Source: Cliona cf. orientalis | Taxonomy: Eukaryota > Porifera > Demospongiae > Clionaida > Clionaidae | Length of the DNA: 64,000 bases | Direction: 5' to 3' | Assembly (NCBI GenBank): GCA_963930775.1 | Contig: OZ005703.1 | Location: 2,294,001 to 2,358,000, forward strand | In this document: positions 19,429 to 41,169 of the stretch, one piece after another | How the letters are laid out: every line of letters starts with the position of its first letter | Position numbering within the stretch: the first letter of the stretch is position 1 | Position numbers and translations under genes: made by a program | Notes under the pieces: model-generated | Seen by the model: the letters and a program-made list of their open reading frames with translations, nothing else | The model's database searches: none | What the model was told of the DNA's origin: nothing

Positions 19429-21119
19429 ATGCCAGGATACAGTGTGCCGCGGAGACTCTTCAAAGATAAGAACTGTCTCGATCTGAATCGCTACCAATGT
19501 TCGAAATGCGAGCTGCTGCTAAAAGATCCCGTCCGCAGGCTTCCGCGCTGCGGACACAGGCTCTGCAAATCTTGCATCGACGGCCTGCCTGCACCTGCAA
19601 AGTGTCCACGACAGGATTGCAAGAAAGATTTTGTGCAAGAAAATGGAGAAATGGTAAATCTTCAATTCAGTGTCACATAGTGCGCACCTAGCTGCATGGT
19701 CCTTCCTTAACAGTTTAGTGATGAGCTTTACATAACTATTTATATAGCTAGTCTGTTGTGCATAACTTGATAGGAAAGTCAAGTTGTCAGTGGCTACATT
19801 AAGTTACATGCTATATTATCATAGTGACTGAACTGGCATGCAGTGATTTTTTTTTATTCTTTTGATATTATTTTTCCCCTGTGCACATGCACCACTTAAT
19901 GTTAATAGTGTCAACCAGATGATTCTGTTAAGCAAGAAATCAGAAATCTACGAGTTATCTGTCCATATTCTGAAGCTGGTTGCAGGTGGGAAGGAAAATT
20001 TCACGATTATCTTCGGCATAAAGAGATTTGTGATGCTGTAGTTGGCCTTCCATCGTATAAACGTGATAATGTGCGTCTTTTCCACTCAATCTCTCCAGTT
20101 CAGTCATTTAGTGAGCAACAAGAAGATGATCATTGCTGTGCATCTGCGCATGTACGACCATATGAGCTGGAGGATCGTAAAAACTCGCCACATTCGGGGA
20201 GAGAGCAGTGCCCGATCAGTCCTCTTACCCCTCCAAGTGCCGAGAGCTACATGGAGGACTGCTACCAGCATGAGCGTCACTTGCACATGCAGGAAAGTGA
20301 TCATTCAGTTGTAGAATATAGCCACATTTTGATGATGGCCAATTGTTGCCAACTATTGACTCAGAGAGAGATCATGCCTGTGCCAGCATCAGACCATGAA
20401 GTGGATATGACGATAATCATAAATACTCAAGAGCTTAATGTACAACGATTTCAAGTTCCACTGCGATCTGAGAATAAAATGCAAGGGATACACAACAGAT
20501 CCCTTTCCTTCACAATGCAACAGTTGGAAGATGCAGTAGCTTTGCTAAATTCCCGAGTGGCCAAATTAAAGGAAAAATATCAATTGTTGAACACTAAACT
20601 TGAGGAACATAATTTTAGACTCTCTCTGATCGAAAACAGCAATCATGATGGCACGATGATTTGGAAGATTCCTCAGTTTAGCCAGAGAAAAGCTGATGCT
20701 GAGAATGGAAGAAGCACATTCCTCTTCTCCCTGCCCTTCTACTCTCAGACTGGTCGCTATGGCTATACAAGATGTGTCTTCGCCTCTACATCATGGGGGA
20801 TGGGATTGGGAAGGGCACTCACCTCTCACTGTTCTTTGTGGTGATGCGTGGAGAGTTTGACAACATCCTCCAGTGGCCATTCACACACAAGGTCACCTTC
20901 AAGCTCATCAACCAGGCGGGAGGCAGGGATATTATCGATACCTTCCAACCAGACCCAATGAGTACCGCATTCAGAAAGCCAAAATCTGATATGAATATTG
21001 CCTGTCAGGGATGCCCACGATTTGTATCCCACACTGAACTGGAATGGAGTGGGCTTATTGTTGAGAATACAATTTTTATTAAATGTATTGTTGATACTAC
21101 CACCATTTTTCACCCATGA
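19429..21119 (+). pseudogene. TRAF-like gene 2, frameshifted in the MATH domain
   Basis: Same two-exon structure as the gene at 239: exon 1 is 19429-19653 (75 codons, RING), and the second coding part starts at 19933 after AG. The RING has Cys/His at the same places with two extra residues, and the TRAF zinc finger and coiled coil are intact. Near 20764-20771 the sequence GGCTATACAAGATG replaces GGCTACAAGATG of copy 1, a 2-nt insertion. As a result the upstream frame ends at 20844, about 40 residues into MATH, while the rest of MATH continues in another frame from about 20772 to the stop at 21119. Everything else is highly conserved. The break is recent, or it is an assembly error, or it yields a MATH-truncated protein. 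The deduced intact family role is that of a TRAF adaptor. Confidence 0.82.
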
Positions 21120-23237: not shown

Positions 23238-25185
23238 CTCCCCCAGCATGCTTTCCTTGTCTTTAATTCTTGTATGCAGAGGATGCTTGTCACGGTCACG
23301 TGACTCTATCAAAAGCGAATTGCACAATTTTGCTATACCACAAAGACTGCATTTGTTGCCCTCAAGAAAGATTTTGTGCATTGTAGCTAGCCGAATTGCC
23401 CGAGGTCCTGAGGCCAAAAAAAAGAAAGAATCAAGCACCTTTTCTGTAGATGGGCTGCTGTTTGTCCTTATGGTATTTTCCTGGGACCTGCGAGCAGTGT
23501 AGGCCTTCGTTAAACGCCTCGATAGATCCAGCATCAGGCAAAGAGTGCTAATGACGACCTAAAGTACAGTGCATTTTTATAAAGCAAGCGCAGCAAGGGC
23601 CAAATAAGCTCAGGTAAATTCAATCTGCATACGATTCGGGCTGTTATTAAAGCTCGCAGACCCAAGTGCTTGAGTTTGCCGAGTTCGTTTCAAGTTTGTA
23701 CCACACGCTACTCATTTCACCCTGGTTTTATTCCATATTTGAAATTCACAGAATTTTATTAGAAAGCTACATGTACACATGTAGCTTTCATTCATTTCAA
23801 AATTTACTTTTCCATGTCCATTTGATATAAATTATTCCGTATGCTTTATCCGAGTTCTGCCCACACTAGTCGGAAGTAGTCGTTCCGAACTACTCGGCAT
23901 TTTTTGCTGCCACTAAAGCCAACGCACAGACTAAAAGTGTAGTTTGGCTATTGACCAACATCACTCAAATCATCCTGGGCAGAACCCTATTCTATGTATA
24001 AGGCTATCAATAGAATATTATGTGGAGCCCACATAATACCTTATCCTAAACCAGCGGTCATTTATGGCTGCATACATAAGTGCTTACTGTGCTATCATTT
24101 ACATGTATGTAGGTATCTATGCTGAATTATCATTCAAGATGCACATGCTAATGACAATTGTGAAGGACTGAGTCTCTACAACAGTGGTTGAAGAAAAGAA
24201 GAGCACAGGACGGGGGCAGAAGACTGAATTTAAAGAGCTGGAGGTAAACAATTATGATAACATGTTTTTGTATGCATTTTTGAACAGCTGGAGTATACAT
24301 AATATTATCAGGTAGCTTATGATTGGGAACCTTAGTTTGAATTCCCGTAAATGCATTCGGTCCTAAATAGGTTAAAACTATCAAATTATATTTATCTGTC
24401 GGTCCATCCGTCAGTAACAGAGGGCCAGCGGAAGCAATTTGACCTCGAGGCACACCATGCTGGATCTCGGGCTACTGAGTGTTTTAAGTGAGAACTCGGC
24501 GTTCTCTGTGAATGGAAATTGTAGCACTGGCTACAGGTGGGAACGATAGCTACTGAACGGACCGTTCAAAGGTTAAGCAACACTGGGCACTTACATGTAG
24601 CGGCCTGCAGTTAGCTAGGCAGCTGGATTCATGTGGTGGAGTCGTCGTCGTGGAGGTAGCTGATTCTGTGATTGGCTTCTTGTGTTCAGATGTCGGAGAG
24701 GGAGACGGCAAGCGAACTAACAAGTTTCTTGGCCAGTTGATTAATTAGAATACAGGATGTCAAAATGTGCATGTTTATGGAAGGTTTTAGTAATTTGGCT
24801 ATGTGCTCCAAGTGGGTGTCAGAACGTGCATGCACAACAGAATGTTTGAGAGTTAACTTGGCCAGTCCTTGCTAGCAATGCTGATAACCTTTGCTCTCAG
24901 AAACAACATGTACGATTAGATTAGAGTCATCTACAAGCATCAGTTCACTTTCTCCCGTGCACACTACAAACCTAATAAACCAGGGAGTGGGCGAGCGAAG
25001 CGAGCCCCACTCCTTGTACGCTAAAACAAATTAACTAGCGTCTATATATTATATAATATAATATTTGAGCAAAGATACATGTAATTATGATGCTCTGGTA
25101 CTTGTATATTCACAGGAAGACGACTTTTTTTGTGGAAGAGTGAAAAGTTGGCAAAGAGAACGAACCTCAGATCAAAAGAGGAAAG
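23238..25185. other. Outer-element interior, weak coding-like traces
   Basis: A plus-strand stretch at about 23370-23500 reads ILCIVASRIARGPEAKKKKE and on to a stop, which looks protein-like, but no family is recognised. 24540-24660 shares words with 5S rRNA (GGTTAAGCAACACTGGGC). The rest is featureless. Confidence 0.3.
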
Positions 25186-25204
25186 AAGTACACTGTTAAA
25201 AAAT

Positions 25205-25400
25205 GGGTACTCTGGTAATACCTTTAGGGGACTTCAAGGTTATGTTTATCGTTAATACCCTAGGGGTATTACATTCAATACCCTTTGGGGTATGGCTCTA
25301 GTACCCTTGGGGTATTGGCTCAAGTACGGTGGAGTACTACTCCAAGTACTCTAGAGGTACTGTCACAGACATGTGTGGTACTACAGCAGGTATCACAGTT
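25205..25400. repeat. Left subterminal repeats of the inner element
   Basis: At least six partly palindromic words of the type AATACCCTAGGGGTATTAC, AATACCCTTTGGGGTAT and AGTACCCTTGGGGTATTGG. They recur in complement near the right end (33945-34105). Subterminal repeats in CACTA elements are usually protein-binding sites needed for transposition; here that is inferred from position and repetition. Confidence 0.7.
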
Positions 25401-25613
25401 GACGAAGGCATAGGGTTGCTAGCATTGATCCAGTGCATGCATGTGCAAATTGTTGTAATTACAGTTTCCACCATGTCATAAATACGACCTCATAACTCAC
25501 ACAAATCATAATCATTAACAAAAAGAAAACTGCATAAACAATTAACTAAAAAAAAAAAAAAACTAAAAATGAGATATGAAGTGTTTTACAATGTGAGATG
25601 CTCTGAAAAGTGT

Positions 25614-28285
25614 TCACAGTTTATCAAGACAACTAATAAACCGAACTAAAGCTTGTGGAATAACATCTTCCTTGATGGAGTACACAAAATGCTGAATAAA
25701 AGTCAGTGGTATGTTCAGTGGCTGGGGATACTGTATATCAAATACATAATAGCATGCCATCATCCCTCCCATAGCTTTGAAAAAGCTACTTGTCGTAAGT
25801 ACCACTAGCCGCTCTGTTACAACAAAGAAAGAGAGTGAATCATCGTTTGCTACTACTCCTACATAGGGATGATTGAGCTTGACTTTCTCGGCCTCTTTTT
25901 CGACATCAGAAGGATTCTACATGCATGATAAAGAAAATTAGTGGTTAATCACATGTATACCTTCAAAACACATGCACGCACGCACATGTACACAAAGAGA
26001 ATGGAGGAAGAGAGAGGATACACACGTTCACACAAAGATACCAATGCTACAGAGACTTGTTGGTAGTTGCTTAGCAACCAAAGTTTTTATAGGCAATTTG
26101 CCGGCTATGGGAAGGGGTTGGGTCATCATAAAGTAGGCCAATGATGAGCAGAGGTCAACTACCAACAAATAGTTATCTGCCAGTAATCGGGGTGCATTCG
26201 ACCATGCATCTTATGCACCACAATTACTGGCAGATAACTATTATATAGAGAAGACAGAATAATATAGAGTGGAACCCCTCTACAAGGAATTAGGACACCA
26301 CCCATGGTCTCAGCTACATAGGGACATGTACAACAGTACCCCTGAAATGAGGACATAATCAGAACACACACACATAATATACAGACTTACACTCGCACAG
26401 AAAGACAACACACATTCACACAGAGGGGAAGCAGGCAAGTTACTAGAGCAAAATTAAAGAGCGGTGCTGTGGTTAAACATCAATGGGTGTTTGTGGTTTT
26501 AAAAACTACATTTAATGCAAAATGACATTTTGAGAGTGGTGCTGCGCCGCTCTACTGCTCTTTAATGACTTCCCTGGGGTAATAGAGAGGATACACACAC
26601 ATACAGAGAGAGAGGGAGAGGAGAGTGAGAGACACACATAGTGAAATAGACAGATAGTGACACACCAACTCACATCAAAATGGTGTATCAGGGTACACTT
26701 TGCCTTGGGTGCAAGTAGACTACAAAGGTACTTCAGTCCGTACACTTGTTCCAGCTGACGCACTGCATATTATGTAAAATAAATCCTTGCAGAATACAGG
26801 TACACCAATGAACACTTACATGGATTTTCATCAGGATAAAGTAGCTTCTCTTCCTCGTGTTGGTCTCTCAGTTTTTGCAAATTTGACTTGCTTGCCTCAA
26901 TCTCCACCTTTCGGTTAATTTTTTCGAGGAATTTTCTCCATGTACTCTTGATTTCGTCATCCTCTGGCAAGTCACTTTTCACAACTGCTGCAAGCTCCTT
27001 TTGAAGCTAAATTAAGGAAAGTAATTAATTAATAATTATGTGTGTACAAGTGTAGTCATGTCTAATTCCACAACGTACGTAAGACGATGACATCTTCAAT
27101 GGCGGGAAATTCTCTAATATCTCGTCAACAGTAGGTCCCTCTTTATCGATCCAATTACGCCGAATTGCCAATGTGTCCTTCATGAAAGTCTTGACACGAG
27201 TCTTGCTTGGTTTGTCTTTCGCACACTCTTCTTGAAGAGATTTGATATCGTGTTTGTACTTCTCCTCTTCTTCTTCAGTGACTTCAATATCGCTGTTCTT
27301 AAACAATTTCCTCTTCTTTGATGGCTGGTTAGGTGGAGGCTCTACATTGTTCTCCTTGTCCTCATCCCTTGTCCTTTTTTGTTTGACTGATGGAGGGGCT
27401 CTAAGATTTTTGAATTTCCTCCTGATTTGTTGCTTCCAGGAACCCTATATGAACGTAATAGATAGAGTTGGAGCAAGAGAGAAAGATATTTAGTTAGAAT
27501 TTATGTATTATAGCAAGTATCAAACCATAATGAAGTATAGTTGCTCCAGTTCTCTCACTCACTTACCCTTTCCCGTACACACACACAGACACCAGCGAGA
27601 CATGCAACACATGCACCCAATTTCATACACAAGCACACACATGCATACACACATAAATCAGAAGCTAAGTGAGTGTAACTTACATAGCCATTTCCAGTTG
27701 AGTCTTTCAGAACAGGATATTTCTGGACCAGTTGTTGAGAGACTGCTGTGTACTCCTCCCTACTGGGGTATTCGCACATCTGGTACCACGGGACACAAAC
27801 TGCACTAACAATTTCACACCTCAGACCGTCGGTGATCTCCCCTTTGTCCAAGCGCTCCATAGTAGCTCTAGAAAACCGATCTGGAATCTTGAAATGGCCC
27901 TGGGCCAATGAGTTCTCACAACTACCAACTGGTTGTAGTGCACTGAGAACAGCCTATAAAAATTATAAAATTTTAAATATACGCAAATGCATGAAATATT
28001 GTGTTGAGTCAATACTAAACATACATTAAACATTATTGGTCTTACGTGGTGAGGTTGAGGTTGTGGTTTCAGGCTTGCAACAATTCTTTGTACAGCTTTT
28101 CTATCGCCGAACAATGAAAACAACTCTTTAAGATCGTCGTCAGAGAGGTCAACAAAAGTCTTCCCATTAACACGATTGGTTTCTATTGCAGTTATGATGT
28201 CCTCAGTAATGTCCTCTTTGTCTTCCAACCAACTGCAGAGTTCTGTCACTGTGAACTTCTGGACCTCGTCGTAATTTTCCACCAT
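25614..28285 (-). CDS. SAM-domain protein encoded by the inner transposon (six exons)
   Basis: Minus-strand exons: 28285-28046, 27953-27684, 27444-27079, 27006-26820, 26762-26674 and 25916-25614. All junctions are GT-AG and frames join without a stop, giving 484 residues. A SAM (sterile alpha motif) domain lies at residues 5-75 (TVTELCSWLEDKEDI ... FVDLSDDDLKELFSLFGDR). Residues about 105-185 contain PWYQMCEYPSREEY, then KYPVLKDSTGNGYGSWKQQI. A Lys-rich stretch with PSKKRKLFKN (possible nuclear signal) and an acidic coiled region follow. The last exon is hydrophobic (FFKAMGGMMACYYVFDIQYP). The layout resembles proteins annotated as SAMD3-like in fish and invertebrates. SAM domains mediate protein-protein or RNA contacts. 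Its position inside the element, divergent from the transposase, suggests an accessory or regulatory transposition protein. That function is inference. Confidence 0.85.
25917..26673 (-). other. Intron 5 of the SAM gene, with two repeat relics
   Basis: It holds a foldback at 26058-26245 (TGGTAGTTGCTTAGCAACCA ... GTTATCTGCCAGTAAT and complement), related to 35799-35920. It also holds a pogo-like fragment near 26268 (GTGGAACCCCTCTACAA). Confidence 0.55.
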
Positions 28286-28289
28286 GACT

Positions 28290-28895
28290 CCAAATTAAAC
28301 TGGGCCAACAAATACAAGTGCATGTAAAGAATAGAATTTTCCTAGAAGCACAACTAATGCTATCTATCAGAAAGAGTAAGAAACTTATAGTAAGTTTATT
28401 GCCTGTGGATTGACACCTTCGTTTAGTATTAAAATTACATTATTATTGTGGTCAACTTACATCCACTTCTTGGTTGTTCAGTGAGGGACGCGAGTACGCA
28501 CAAGACTTCAGCCAACGCCAGAAAGAGAGAGAGAGAGCAGGGATAGTACAGCGTCTTCACACAGACAGGGATCGAGGATCAGCTTTCTCACGTACACTTC
28601 AATGTGTCAGAAAATCACATGCACAACTACCACGTACGTGCAACGTATATCGCGTACGCGCGCGCATGCTCGAATGCTGAGCAACTGGACAAAGGGGGTT
28701 AAACTTGAAATTGTTATTTGAGTGGACTCTGCTGCTCTGGCTGGACTCGACTGCTTCCCCACGCCGCCACACTACCAGTAAGCAAGCTTTTAGCGAAATT
28801 ATAAGCTTAGCGTCTATTAAATATTATATGCTATAAATTATACATCATTGTGATATTAGACATATGAAACTCAGAGGTTTGTACATATCTATAGG
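28290..28895. promoter_or_regulatory. Shared divergent promoter region of the two transposon genes
   Basis: About 600 bp between the SAM start (28285) and the transposase start (28900). It contains a GC-rich CpG-containing stretch at 28610-28660 (ACGTACGTGCAACG, CGCGTACGCGCGCGC). The short frame at 28474-28680 is probably 5' UTR or promoter rather than a gene. Co-expression of both genes from this spacer is an inference from layout. Confidence 0.45.
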
Positions 28896-28899
28896 TGTG

Positions 28900-31800
28900 A
28901 TGTCTTTGGTTTGTCCTTTGTGTGGTGATGTTACTGTGTCTAAGCATTCACAGCTGATGACACACATCAGGCTCTTACACGCTGATGATCCAAATTTCAT
29001 GATTCAGTGCAATCGTCAAGGATGCAAGAGAACGTTTCGGAAATTTACTGTTTACAGAAACCACATTTATGCTTTTCATGGTACAGCACTAGATGAAACC
29101 ACCGTAACACCACATTCATGTGGAGAAACAAGTGGAAATCCTCCAGTAACAGGTATTATGACAACCATTGATTATTGCTCACCTGGTAAGGCCAAAATAA
29201 GGACAATAATGTTCAAGATAGGCGGCCACCTACATGCCTGGCATAAATAATATGATACAATCCCTATACTCATGTACATTCTGTTGCACGATGCAAGTTG
29301 TGTCTAATGAGTGCTATAGTTGTTCTCAATCTGTTATTCAGGTGATTCTTTTGACCAAGATGTGAGTGAGATGCGTGTGTCTATCACAGAAGAGGATCTA
29401 AAGGTGGCAGCAGCTAAATGGATTTTGAAAAACCGAGAAGGCCATCGGATTCCTAATTCTGTTATGGAATCCATTGTATCTGGAGCTAAGTTTCTGTATG
29501 AAACAGCCTTGTCAGAAATTCAGCGACAAGTAGTGGACGAGATGAAGGAAGCTAATATTACTCCCGACACCATTACTTCTGTATCACGTGTGTTTGATGG
29601 TGAAACGCAATACACGAATGTATTCAGGGGATTAGAAACAACTTACCGCCAAAATTCATTCATCAAAGACCACTTCAGATTTGTTGTATGTCTCTAATTC
29701 AATGAAGTGATACGTATAGTGTTCTTCCTAGCATACATGTTCCTAAGACATGTTGGCCCAACAAGCCTTCAGTACAGAGTTTCCTTTGATGTGGGAATAG
29801 GGATGATCCATGTGCTTTGTTGTGGTCAGAGGCGCGCAAGGCTCCACCAAACTATTCCCTCCCGTCATGCCTCGAGTTTAGCTTGGGGAGAACAATGCAT
29901 AATATACCACTCAATAATAATTATTAATAATTATCATTGTCTATCTGTCTTCCTTCCATGTACATGTAGGAACCTGTTCAAATACTCCTTGGTACCCGTT
30001 CCCAACCCGGCAAATTTCTCAAGGATGGTAGTGTCAAACAAACCAGGGACACCATGATCTATATTCCCATTCTTGAAACCATCCAAAACCTTCTCCAGAA
30101 TGAAACAGTGCTGTCAGAGGTATACTATGCAGTTTGTCATTTGTGTCTATGGGCTTCTTGTATGCATAAGTGCAATGTACATGTACATGCATGTACTTTA
30201 CATATATGTGTGTACACACATGTACATGTGCGATAACAACCATGTGTCCACACATTCATTATATAGATTGAGAGGGGGCATCGTACGAGAGAACCTGACG
30301 TGTTGAAGGATTTCTGTGATGGCCATGTTTTGAACAACCACAGACTTTTCTCAGTACACAGGAATGGATTGCAGATTCTATTCTACTTCGATGACATAGA
30401 GGTGGTTAATAATCTGGGCTCACACAAAAAAGTCCACAAATTGGGTAAGTTGTAGTATAGAGCACTGACAACATTAAACTAAGTATTCATATGCACAGGT
30501 GTGTTTTATTTCACACTGGGAAATCTCAGACCCAAATACCGTTCACGATATTCAAGCATCTATCTGTTGGCAATTTGCAAGAGAAAGCTGATTACTTTGT
30601 ATTCAATGTCTACTGTTCTTCAACCAATCGTTGAAGATATCAAGATTCTTGTAAGTTACACATGTACATGTATGTATTATTTAATTTGTGTACTTTAACA
30701 TGTGTATTAGGAAAAAGGCCATGTCTTTGAGGTTAGAGGTGAAACGAAGACCTACTATGGCACAATTGCTGTTGTTTCAGCTGACAACCCAGCTAGTAAT
30801 GGTCTTGGTGGGTTCAAAGAAAGCGTTTCTGCCACCAGATATTGTCGACAGTGTATGGTAGACAGTCAGACTGCCCAGCAGGAGGTATGATCACTTGATA
30901 CACAGTAGTGTTTTGATTTTCATTGATCCATTTTTGTGTGTACATGTAGTTTGATGAAGGTTCTCTTATTTTGCGTACCCGAGAGCAGCACCTTCGTAAC
31001 TGTGACACCCTTGAAGCTGACACCGTCTCACCTGCAGCAACCTCAACACAGCTGGGAATCAACTACCGCTCAATTTTATTCGAGCTGCAACACTTCGAAG
31101 TGGACGTGTTGGTTCCGGACGTGATGCACGATATACTGGAAGGGACGCTTCAGTTTGAAGCCAAGCTTGTACTTCAGCATATTGTGAGGGAGAGGTATGT
31201 TTCCTATTCCATGTTTGCAGGTGCTCTTGCTCGACTAGAGCTAGGGTACATGGAGGCTGACAATAAACCTTCTGAGATCTCTTCAGCTACTCTCTCATCA
31301 TCGGATAAGACTCTGGGACAAAAAGGTTGGGAATTCATTTCATTGTGTACATGTATGTGCCTTATTTAATCATACATACACCCTTACCATTTTAATATAG
31401 CTGCTCAAATGTGGTTGTTGGGAAGAGTGATCCCATACCTGATTGGAGAAAATATTCCAGAAGGAGATATCAACTGGAAGAATTACTTGCAACTGTTGGA
31501 GATTGTAGATCTGCTGATGGCCCCAGAGATATCTGAGGACGAAGTTGGTGAACTAACTCTACTTATCTCTCAACATCACACCCTATTCTCTCACCTATAC
31601 ACGAGTTCTAGTGTGCTACCTAAGCACCATTTTATGGTGCATATGCCCCGTCTTATCCTCAAGTAAGTGTGTGTGTGTGTACATGTATTTGTGCATGTGT
31701 GTACATGTACGTGTGTTTGTGTGTGTATTCATGTTGTGTAAGTGTATATAATACGTTTGTGTGTGTACGTGTATATATACAGTAGAACCCCAGTTATCCA

Positions 31801-32860
31801 ACCTGCTTGAGACCAAGCCTAAATGCCAGATATGTGAATCGACCATTACATACATGTACTTCTAGTATACGTGATGCAATCGGAAAGTGTGCATTAATTA
31901 GAAGTTTAGATGTACGTGTATAGAGGCGCAGATAAGAGGTTCCACTGTACATGTATGTGTGTGCATGTACAATATGTCATGTGTTTGTGTACATATGTAT
32001 GTGTATGTGTTTATGTGGTGTATGTGTGTACATGTGTGCATGTGCTTGTGTTTATGTGTGGTGTGTGTGTAAGTACTAGTGCTTTTAGACTATTACACGT
32101 ATATACATGTAAATGCACAGGTATGGTCCACTTGTCCGTCAATGGACGATGCGATATGAAGCCAAGCACAACCATCTGAAGAAGCTTGCTCAAAATATTG
32201 GCAACTTTATCAATATTGCATTGACCTTGGCAACAAGACACCAGTACTGGCAGTGCTACAAGTGGCAAGAAGGAGATTTGATGGACGATGAGCCAGAAGT
32301 TGGGCCAGGTATTATATTAAACATTTTTTGTACCATGTACAAGATTCATCTTCATGCATCTGCATCACTATTTAAGGCACTGTGTTTTATCCTTTCAAAT
32401 ATGCAGGTGATTTGGTTGCCACTAGGGATAGGCCACTGGAGCTAGCCACTATTGATACCTGCTACAAGTGAGTTTTTCTTTGCACTATGTGAACCTGGTA
32501 ATAATGATCGTTTTGTTCGGTTATAGGACCAAATGGGCTATAAAAGATGGTATTCTGTACAAGGTTCCCTGTGTGCTTACTGTTGAGATAGACAATGACT
32601 ACCCACAGTTTGGAAGAGTAGAGAGTATATACATTGCAGATAGTAACTCTGTGTATTTTCTCCTGAGAATGATGAACACAGTGAACTTCAACATTCACCG
32701 GCACTTCTACGTAGTTGAACTTTCCTCTAACTATAAAACAGTGCGTTTTACTGATTTGTACTATGTCTTCCCCCTACACCTGAGAAGATCTGTGGTCAAC
32801 AATTCCAGTTGTTTATGTGTCATTCCAAAACATCACATTCTGCACTCATTACAGCAATAA
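28900..32860 (+). CDS. CACTA/En-Spm-type transposase with N-terminal C2H2 fingers (eleven exons, intact)
   Basis: Exons: 28900-29152, 29342-29685, 29970-30119, 30267-30444, 30499-30650, 30711-30884, 30950-31325, 31401-31662, 32121-32308, 32407-32467 and 32527-32860. All introns are GT-AG, all phases fit, and no stop interrupts 823 codons. Two C2H2 zinc fingers lie at residues 5-27 and 37-60. Candidate catalytic acids are D291/D292 in ILFYFDDIEVVNNLG and D384 in VVSADNPASNGLGGF, the latter followed by CRQC, as in the Transposase_21 pattern. Conserved PDVMHDILEG follows at about 473-482, and E643 lies in MRYEAKHNH. The enzyme would cut and paste the element by binding its ends. An in-frame ATG at 28864 would add 12 residues; 28900 was chosen because the sequence before it resembles a splice acceptor. 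The exon 7 donor (GTTGGG) is weak. Confidence 0.9.
31778..31949. mobile_element. Small pogo/Tc1-like inverted-repeat element in transposase intron 8
   Basis: Begins TACAGTAGAACCCCAGTTAT and ends GATAAGAGGTTCCACTGTA. The ends are imperfect complements with TA at both borders. The end sequence resembles pogo-type MITEs of invertebrates. It lies between exons 8 (to 31662) and 9 (from 32121), so the transposase reading frame is unaffected. Confidence 0.6.
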
Positions 32861-32965
32861 TAATTATTTTTAATAACATGCAGTGTAAGCTGAATTTATA
32901 ATTATTATTAATAAATTATTGGAGTAATGATTGTGAATTTGCCTTATTGTACTTTGGTCTCTGCA

Positions 32966-33892
32966 TGGTGATCATGTACTGTTTCAGGTGTAGAATCAGG
33001 ATAACAAGTCCATTTTCATGGGCGATCAAGTGTTCTTGTGTATGAGGGGTGACGTACATGGGTTACGACACTTGCTGAATTCGGTACAATTTCAACACGT
33101 GTTTTGGTCTCACCAGCTCATACTTATGTTTCTGCTAACCAGACCTGGTGATCATGTACTGTTTCAGGTGTAGAATCAGGATAACAAGTCCATTTTCATG
33201 GGCGATCAACTGTTCTTGTGCATGACAGGTGACATACATGGGTTACGACACTTGCTGAATTCGGTACAATTTCAACACGTGTTTTGGTCTCACCAGCTCA
33301 TACTTATGTTTCTGCTAACCAGACCTGGTGATCATGTACTGTTTCAGGTGTAGAATCAGGATAACAAGTCCATTTTCATGGGCGATCAAGTGTTCTTGTG
33401 CATGACAGGTGACGTACATGGGTTACGACACTTGCTGAATTCGGTACAATTTCAACACGTGTTTTGGTCTCACCAGCTCATACTTATGTTTCTGCTAACC
33501 AGATCTGGTGATCATGTACTGTTTCAGGTGTAGAATCAGGATAACAAGTCCATTTTCATGGGCGATCAACTGTTCTTGTGCATGACAGGTGACGTACATG
33601 GGTTACGACACTTGCTGAATTCGGTACAATTTCAACACGTGTTTTGGTCTCACCAGCTCATACTTATGTTTCTGCTAACCAGACCTGGTGATCATGTACT
33701 GTTTCAGGTGTAGAATCAGGATAACAAGTCCATTTTTATGGGCGATCAAGTGTTCTTGTGCATGACGGGTGACGTACATGGGTTACGACACTTGCTGAAT
33801 CTGGTACAATTTCAACACGTGTTTTGGTCTCGTCAGCTCATACTTTTGTTTCTGTCAACCAGGCATGGTGATCATGTACTGTTTCAGGTGTA
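32966..33892. repeat. 180-bp tandem array inside the inner transposon
   Basis: Five full units with an exact 180-bp period, starting TGGTGATCATGTACTGTTTC, plus 27 bases of a sixth. Units differ at only a few positions (GATCAAG or GATCAAC, GACAGGTGACGTAC variants). The last unit is most diverged. It lies between the transposase stop and the right end. It is probably a recent amplification, and could be a binding-site or spacer array. Confidence 0.95.
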
Positions 33893-33944
33893 TACAATCA
33901 GCTAGGATATTAATTTTAGTGCTTGTATGAGCCACATTATGGGT

Positions 33945-34110
33945 ATTGCTAGAGTACTCTAGGGGTTTTAAAAGTGCTAATTGGAGATCATTAGAACATT
34001 CAGGGTATTGCAGCGTGCTTAGGGTACCATGGTAATACCCCCACGATACTGTCACAATACCCCTACTGTTTTGTCCATAGATTGGGGTATTGACACAGTA
34101 CCCCAATTTT
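33945..34110. repeat. Right subterminal repeats of the inner element
   Basis: Words such as GGGTATTGC, AGGGTATTGCAGCG, GGTAATACCCCC, CAATACCCCT and GGGGTATTGACACAGTAC mirror those at 25205-25400. Confidence 0.65.
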
Positions 34111-34199
34111 AACAGTGTAAAGACACAATTCTAGTGATCATGACTGTACGTAAGATGTACATGTGCCAACATTTCATTTATATTACGACTTTCCAAAAT

Positions 34200-34660
34200 T
34201 AAGTTACCATTAAAACTCTTTTTAGATTTGTACTGCTGCTTAATGCTCTTTTTTTTTGGCTGATTTCAGATTGATTTTAATGTATTCTTCAAACAATATT
34301 AAGTTCATTTTGAGATAGCAACAAATTTAAGACTGTAGATTAAGATTGTTTTCATATAATATTAAGACAGACGCATGCTCATGAACACACATTTTAAGAC
34401 TTGTTTCAGACACAATTAAGTTCATTGCAAGACATTTTTAAGATCTCTACTGGTTTCTACACATTATTCTTTTCATACCCCACTCAGACCCTTTTCTGCT
34501 TCTTTAAGATCCTTAAGGTGTCCAATTTTAAGACCATTTTCCGACCGTTTTTTGGTCGTTTTAAAACCCTTTCTTGACCCTTTTCAAGGACTTTTCATGT
34601 TCTGTGGTCCTATTCTTTCCCAGACAAATTATTAAGACTCTTCTCATGGCATTTTAAGAC
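34200..34660. repeat. Right subterminal repeats of the outer CACTA element
   Basis: Repeated TTTTAAGAC/TTAAGAT words, complementary in sense to the left cluster at 22260-22710. They end just before the CTCCAGTAGTG terminus. Confidence 0.7.
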
Positions 34661-34680
34661 TCCCTTCTCCAGTAGTGAGT

Positions 34681-35328
<648 letters not shown>

Positions 35329-35362
35329 TGCAGTGCACACACATGCAAGCACACACAACAAT

Positions 35363-35450
35363 GCTAGAGCTCATTGGTGGCCAGCATTAGTACATATACG
35401 AGAGAACGCTAAATTAAATCGATATCGTGACTAGTATGTAGGTAAGCAAT
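35363..35450 (+). repeat. CTAGAGCTCATTG-family repeat, copy 1
   Basis: CTAGAGCTCATTGGTGGCCA ... GAGAGAACGCTAAATTAAAT ... GTAGGTAAGCAA. Other copies lie at 38238-38310, 49187-49215 (partial) and 49642-49725. Two of these (49187 and 49642) also follow a CT/CA microsatellite. Confidence 0.65.
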
Positions 35451-35798
35451 TCAAGTAGCTGTAATTTATGTATAGTGAATTGTCCTAATTAATTTATCAT
35501 GCACTGCTGTATGCATATTATGTTGTATGTGTGTTTGATAATGTGTATGCATGTGCATGCACATGTGAGAGCCTGGGCTATAGGCACTACATAGGCTTCC
35601 TATCTTAGACTAGTAATTAACCTCATGCAACTAACCAGCTGTGCTTGCACCACAAAGAGGATTGCACACAAACATGCACAAAGTATGTATTATAACCACT
35701 GCTGTTCTCACTGCTCTATAATATGTAAGCATCCTTTTGTGTATGTGGGTGCATGTTGTGACCACAGTACAGCAGTGCTGTGTCTGCATGGCTCTTTG

Positions 35799-40289: not shown

Positions 40290-41105
<816 letters not shown>

Positions 41106-41169
41106 AGCTAATATCCAAGGGATGATTTCAAACTCATGCAGGCATGGACTACAGTTGACGTCATTTAAT

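Follow-up and report, generated by a model that had tools for sequence, protein, structure and literature searches.

Can an animal transposon related to the CACTA elements carry, beside its transposase gene, a second gene that contributes to its movement? The question is raised by a locus in the genome of the sponge Cliona cf. orientalis (assembly GCA_963930775.1, contig OZ005703.1, positions 2,294,001 to 2,358,000), a stretch of 64,000 nucleotides that we call the window. Its segment 25191-34117 is a transposon carrying two head-to-head genes, one for a transposase and one for a protein with a SAM domain. In the reading that we favour, with a probability of roughly 0.6, the element is a cut-and-paste transposon of the CACTA/Mirage/Chapaev (CMC) clade that encodes a transposase and a SAM-domain accessory transposition factor.

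Borders, insertion and genes of the element

The flanks of the element (24900-25190 and 34118-34420) are part of another interspersed repeat. When the left and the right flank were searched separately in the genome (217 Mb in 149 contigs, the one genome to which all pairing and copy results refer), both were found no more than 60 bp apart at 28 other places. At 22 of these both flank alignments reach the junction, with an overlap of exactly 2 bp in every case, and at the remaining six one alignment ends before the junction. The 22 empty sites thus fix the borders of the element and its TA duplication. The termini read CACTG...CAGTG with TA bordering each side, and the arms 25189-25222 and 34086-34119 form a 34-nucleotide inverted repeat, 82% complementary, with CACTGTTAAAA ends. 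CACTG...CAGTG ends are common to four families of these elements, A to D, the window element being a member of family A. A 2-bp duplication is present in all nine copies with both ends located, as TA in seven, TG in one and AA in one (on both sides of copy B1); copy B4, the locus at 12.88 Mb of contig C1, D1 (right end) and L039, in which ends are unlocated, stand outside this count. A 3-bp target-site duplication was rejected, as it occurs in none of the nine.

The 250-bp left end of family A was found at five places (one partial) and its 233-bp right end at three, the window copy included, which indicates a small family. A second copy (L009), on another contig and with different flanks, is about 95% identical to the window copy; both of its frames are open, and its exon lengths are those of the window copy except for one 6-nucleotide difference. 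Being intron-rich and consistently spliced, the two genes look host-like, and they might be taken for ordinary host genes that lie head to head by chance between chance repeats. This is so improbable that we rejected it in view of the 22 empty sites with their 2-bp overlap, to which the dispersed second copy and the duplications in nine of nine copies can be added. The intact two-gene transposon with divergent genes and recognisable CACTG ends, as described in the original prediction from the letters alone, is therefore confirmed by inverted repeats, open frames and empty sites.

The same prediction gave proteins of 823 and 484 codons, and these lengths hold. All 15 introns of the two genes are GT-AG with consistent phases. 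A spliced-alignment script that was given the two proteins recovers both from the DNA, which is a consistency check only; better support for the gene model comes from family B, 72% identical, for which the script yields eight inner transposase exons identical in length to those of the window copy (344, 150, 178, 152, 174, 262, 188 and 61 nucleotides). An upstream ATG at 28864, which would add 12 residues to the transposase, was rejected because it is out of frame in L009, so that the length of 823 amino acids is right. The spacer between the two start codons presumably holds the promoters of both genes.

Comparison of the two A copies shows that both genes are under purifying selection, the evidence being moderate for the SAM gene. 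Synonymous divergence amounts to 3.9% in the transposase and 3.4% in the SAM gene, with 4.3% in non-exon sequence, and nonsynonymous divergence to 0.8% and 1.1%, respectively. The resulting ratios of nonsynonymous to synonymous divergence are 0.21 for the transposase (Fisher p = 4.7e-6, strong) and 0.31 for the SAM gene (p = 0.013, moderate).

Class of the transposase

With the window transposase, Pfam returned nothing above cut-off (C2H2, E 0.039; YDG, E 0.18), and a sequence search of the PDB gave zinc-finger and chance matches only. The protein has two C2H2-type fingers, one recognised by the weak Pfam match and the second by eye and by its invariant residues. Transposase_21 (PF02992) appeared below cut-off for the family C member only (E 0.0063) and was not listed for the other three; the best score among the four members was 16.2 bits, the cut-off being 28.6, and DUF1258 was nearly as close (E 0.011).

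Profile alignment is more telling. Aligned with hhalign to six Transposase_21 proteins (one partial) from the same genome, the four-family profile reached a probability of 99.35% over 404 columns, with an E value of 6e-21 for that single comparison. The alignment pairs D291, D384, C404/C407, M476-H477, H619/H623 and E643 with the Transposase_21 proteins, and D291, D384, C404xxC407, H619xxxH623 and E643 are invariant in the four families. By a published definition (PMC12730594), such residues characterise the CMC clade. As the aligned and invariant residues agree with this definition, the profile alignment shows the transposase to belong to the CMC clade. The expectation of a DDE transposase with C2H2-type fingers is supported. 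Within the proposed catalytic triad D292, D384 and E643, the last two residues stand, while D291 is more likely than D292 for the first position, since it is D291 that aligns with the Transposase_21 aspartate; D292 is also invariant in the four families.

The CACTA label itself held only in part. Canonical CACTA/EnSpm elements have CACTA...TAGTG termini and a 3-bp target-site duplication (PMC4158355). The window element shares with the canonical type short subterminal repeat arrays at both ends, but it has CACTG ends, 2-bp duplications and a PF02992 domain below threshold, which place it outside canonical CACTA: it is a CMC-clade element. Its resemblance to En/Spm could even be wholly convergent if it belonged to a separate CMC lineage (Mirage-, Chapaev- or ESTA-like), a view that is compatible with an accessory role for the SAM protein. 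The CACTG ends and 2-bp, mostly TA, duplications point that way, as does a Transposase_21 match that stays below cut-off in one of four members and is unlisted for three, with DUF1258 nearly as close. Given how strongly the profile aligns with Transposase_21 proteins from this genome, and given a published animal CACTA element that also has 2-bp duplications (PMC1636069), we hold the chances of a separate lineage to be somewhat short of even.

The SAM partner and its possible role

The partner was predicted to contain a SAM domain, and the four-family profile agrees: its top PDB matches are SAM domains, with Sfmbt at E 3.2e-5 and Shank2 at E 8.6e-5. Taken singly, the protein scores below the Pfam cut-off for SAM (weak) and finds nothing in the PDB by sequence. 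Exon 1 encodes the SAM domain, which families A, B and C and copy D2 retain. Beyond it lie a conserved core, a motif resembling a nuclear localisation signal (PSKKRK) that lines up across the four families, and a C-terminal part for which Pfam gave nothing above cut-off; an AlphaFold model of the last exon was discarded at a predicted local distance difference test (pLDDT) score of 44.6. SAMD3-like fish proteins presumably also have a SAM domain at the N terminus and a comparable central core, a kinship that is a lead only.

A search of the genome with the SAM protein gave at least 74 exon-level matches. We read 16 SAM loci (the window, L009, L010, L011, four of family B, three each of C and D, L039 and L038); 11 further weaker loci, grouped by eye, are outside this count. 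A transposase lies head to head with the SAM gene at 11 of the 16 (the window, L009, B1-B4, C2, C3, D2, D3 and L039, where it is recognisable in its N-terminal part only and has stops). At a twelfth (contig C1, 12.88 Mb) it lies 10 kb off in divergent orientation. The pair thus recurs in four families and in a degraded fifth lineage, down to identities of 27% for the SAM protein and 39% for the transposase across the four families. A genome search for PF02992 gave 77 matches, many in long open frames, and by eye none of them has a SAM match nearer than 20 kb. Searches with the transposase profile in viral and genome contig collections, and with the SAM profile in viral contigs, gave pattern matches of which none was confirmed.

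Relatives of the window element appear to have moved recently, judging from near-identical copies in families B (99.9% over 9.9 kb, differently flanked on three contigs) and C (99.4%). Copies of family D are 97.9-99.9% identical, with indels. Among them D3 (L030/L031) is without 673 bp that carry the SAM exon in D2, and D2 (L028/L029) is without part of the transposase, so that each has one broken gene; supply of the missing protein in trans would fit such a pair of near-identical copies.

Repeats near the ends give a possible target for the partner. ATACCC occurs in both terminal 300-bp regions of families A (5+5) and B (6+6), and ACACCC in those of C (5+5) and D (3+5), with means of 0.08-0.6 for the same motif in random interior pairs. 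Subterminal repeat arrays are typical of plant CACTA elements, where they bind TnpA, and by this analogy we propose that the SAM protein may bind the end arrays. Indirect support from selection, conserved pairing, subterminal repeats and the PSKKRK motif makes it plausible that the SAM protein is a TnpA-like accessory factor which arose by convergence. Indeed, the presence of the two genes together in several distantly related copies suggests that moving may need two proteins, as in the plant element. A Pfam search bearing on kinship with TnpA gave nothing above cut-off for the window protein and weak matches only for the four members, plant TnpA itself not being part of the comparison.

In the mechanism that we envisage, both proteins would be expressed from the shared central spacer. 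The DDE core of the transposase would cut, and its N-terminal C2H2 fingers probably contact the terminal repeats. The SAM protein would enter the nucleus by means of PSKKRK, bind the ATACCC-type repeats at both ends and self-associate through its SAM domain, as SAM domains of Shank, ETV6, Bicaudal-C and ANKS, which are in the PDB match list, are known to polymerise. It could then join the ends for the transposase, in the manner of TnpA with TnpD in maize En/Spm though with an unrelated domain, and transposition would need it.

The main competitor of this proposal keeps the SAM protein transposon-encoded and selected, and gives it a role in regulation or escape from silencing instead of end assembly. 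Fungal CMC elements keep a dioxygenase cargo (PMC12730594), TNPA reactivates a methylated Spm promoter (PMC1636069), and the SAM domain finds its best PDB match in a chromatin protein, Sfmbt. The motif arrays at both ends suggest, on the contrary, an end-binding protein, though the transposase fingers could bind them as well; we regard a regulatory role as possible, at odds well below even. It is unlikely that the SAM gene was captured from the host and is carried as a passenger without a part in transposition. In favour of this reading, the SAM protein shows less conservation than the transposase across six of six family pairs, and one SAM-like gene (L038) has no transposase in the stretch read. 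Arrangement and orientation are nevertheless the same in families whose SAM proteins are 27-32% identical, purifying selection acts on the gene, and A, B, C and D2 retain its domain.

Several observations weigh against an accessory transposition factor. Pairing was counted from SAM-bearing loci, so that transposases of this type without a SAM gene are outside the count. Moreover, at four of the 16 loci (L010, L011, D1 and L038) the stretch read holds no transposase. The first two are remnants of the left end, and D1 is an interrupted D element that passes into other sequence, where by eye there is a pogo-like frame. SAM homologues standing alone, named beforehand as the contrary pattern, are not the rule in the loci read; L038, however, is intact, with no transposase within 7.8 kb upstream. 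Families A and B are the closest pair for both genes (transposase 72%, SAM 60%), but the other five pairs, at 39-45% for the transposase and 27-32% for the SAM protein, rank differently between the genes, and co-inheritance is thus supported more by the repeated arrangement than by the divergences. The selection result for the SAM gene is based on 10 synonymous and 12 nonsynonymous changes. Once it is taken into account that the motif was picked after inspection, the signal of the end arrays is weak in D and modest in A: an equally frequent 6-mer was found in 4-8% of 1000 interior pairs for A, in none for B, in 0.5% for C and in 20% for D. Finally, a single-sequence AlphaFold model of the SAM exon (five helices, pLDDT 78.3) matched no SAM structure meaningfully, SAMHD1 appearing only among matches with E of at least 4.

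The L038 gene (contig C4:4386000-4394999, minus strand) has the architecture of the SAM gene, and by eye the adjoining gene looks ZU5-type; we consider it a candidate for a solo or domesticated SAM-like gene. A more far-reaching idea, which we put forward as speculative and rather doubtful, is that animal CMC transposons evolved their own TnpA. The SAM protein would polymerise on family-specific subterminal repeats, pair the ends and co-evolve with the motif (ATACCC in A and B, ACACCC in C and D), and solo genes like L038, and perhaps vertebrate SAMD3-type genes, would be domesticated descendants.

The coordinates of the features are collected in Table 1. The short repeat in SAM intron 5 has 43 further matches in the genome, whole or in part, at 88-98% identity; in L009 a repeat of this type sits in a transposase intron instead. 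An Rfam scan of window positions 24500-35500 gave no match. Elsewhere in the window, two frames that look alike by eye lie at 640-1839 and 19909-20841 (Pfam TRAF/MATH in the first, nothing in the second), the start of an alanyl-tRNA synthetase-like frame at 40740-41168 on the minus strand (tRNA-synt_2c, E 2e-11), and a long CT dinucleotide repeat of 65.5 copies at 35197-35327.

Table 1. Features of the transposon, in window coordinates.
Feature	Position	Strand	Details
Whole transposon	25191..34117	+	8927 bp; flanked by 2-bp TA target-site duplications
TA target-site duplication, left	25189..25190		From empty sites and end comparison
TA target-site duplication, right	34118..34119		From empty sites and end comparison
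Left terminal inverted repeat	25191..25222	+	Begins CACTGTTAAAA; first 10 bases same in families A-D
Right terminal inverted repeat	34086..34117	-	From inverted-repeat and end comparison
Left subterminal region	25191..25490		5 ATACCC; partly units of about 23 bp, palindromic-looking by eye
Right subterminal region	33818..34117		5 ATACCC
SAM-protein gene	25614..28285	-	6 exons, 484 amino acids; frame open in L009
SAM-gene exons	28285-28046, 27953-27684, 27444-27079, 27006-26820, 26762-26674, 25916-25614	-	
SAM-gene exon 1, SAM domain	28046..28285	-	From four-family profile against PDB
High-copy short repeat in SAM intron 5	26057..26244		Window copy
Spacer between both start codons	28286..28899		From gene coordinates; promoters presumed
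Transposase gene	28900..32860	+	11 exons, 823 amino acids; frame open in L009
Transposase exons 1-6	28900-29152, 29342-29685, 29970-30119, 30267-30444, 30499-30650, 30711-30884	+	
Transposase exons 7-11	30950-31325, 31401-31662, 32121-32308, 32407-32467, 32527-32860	+	
180-bp tandem repeat	32966..33892		5.2 copies, 97% matches; between transposase stop and right end; also in L009

Comparison with known systems

Within the CACTA group, plants supply most of what is known about transposition by two proteins. If our proposal is right, a partner with an unrelated domain, kept across several families of an animal element, would suggest that the requirement for a partner protein has been satisfied more than once; some multicopy SAM-domain genes could then be transposon genes and not host genes. 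Our literature search yielded no CACTA/EnSpm element described as having a SAM protein, with Repbase and most subscription journals outside its scope; this is weak evidence of absence, as the pairing may be known there.

Plant CACTA elements have subterminal repeat arrays, as does the window element. They also resemble it, maize En/Spm among them, in encoding two proteins (PMC4158355), in the order D, D, C(2)C, H(3)H, E and in CACT... ends, and the second open reading frame of plant CACTA supports excision and transposition in specific families (PMC4158355). The sponge element differs in its CACTG instead of CACTA ends and in its 2-bp instead of 3-bp duplication. Moreover, a single transcription unit with alternative splicing yields the proteins of Spm (PMC1636069), whereas here the SAM-domain partner is encoded by a divergent gene.

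Among animals and fungi, SmTRC1 and other TRC elements share with the window element a CACTA-type transposase, a 2-bp duplication and an internal tandem-repeat region (PMC1636069). They have CCC ends, and their extra proteins, which show no similarity to plant TNPA, are made by alternative splicing; the available part of the same paper mentions no SAM domain (PMC1636069). The ESTA, Plavaka and TET-carrying EnSpm elements of fungi belong to the CMCT clade and mostly have 5'-CA..TG-3' ends, with duplications of 2-5 bp (TA in ESTA) and an extra gene, which in their case encodes a TET/JBP dioxygenase (PMC12730594). The division of labour that we propose has a counterpart in PIF/Harbinger transposons (Nuwa lineage), in which a transposase is accompanied by a separate DNA-binding partner protein (PMC12730594), DNA binding of the partner being presumed in the sponge element. 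PIF/Harbinger is another superfamily, and its partner is a Myb/SANT protein (PMC12730594) where the sponge element has a SAM-domain protein.

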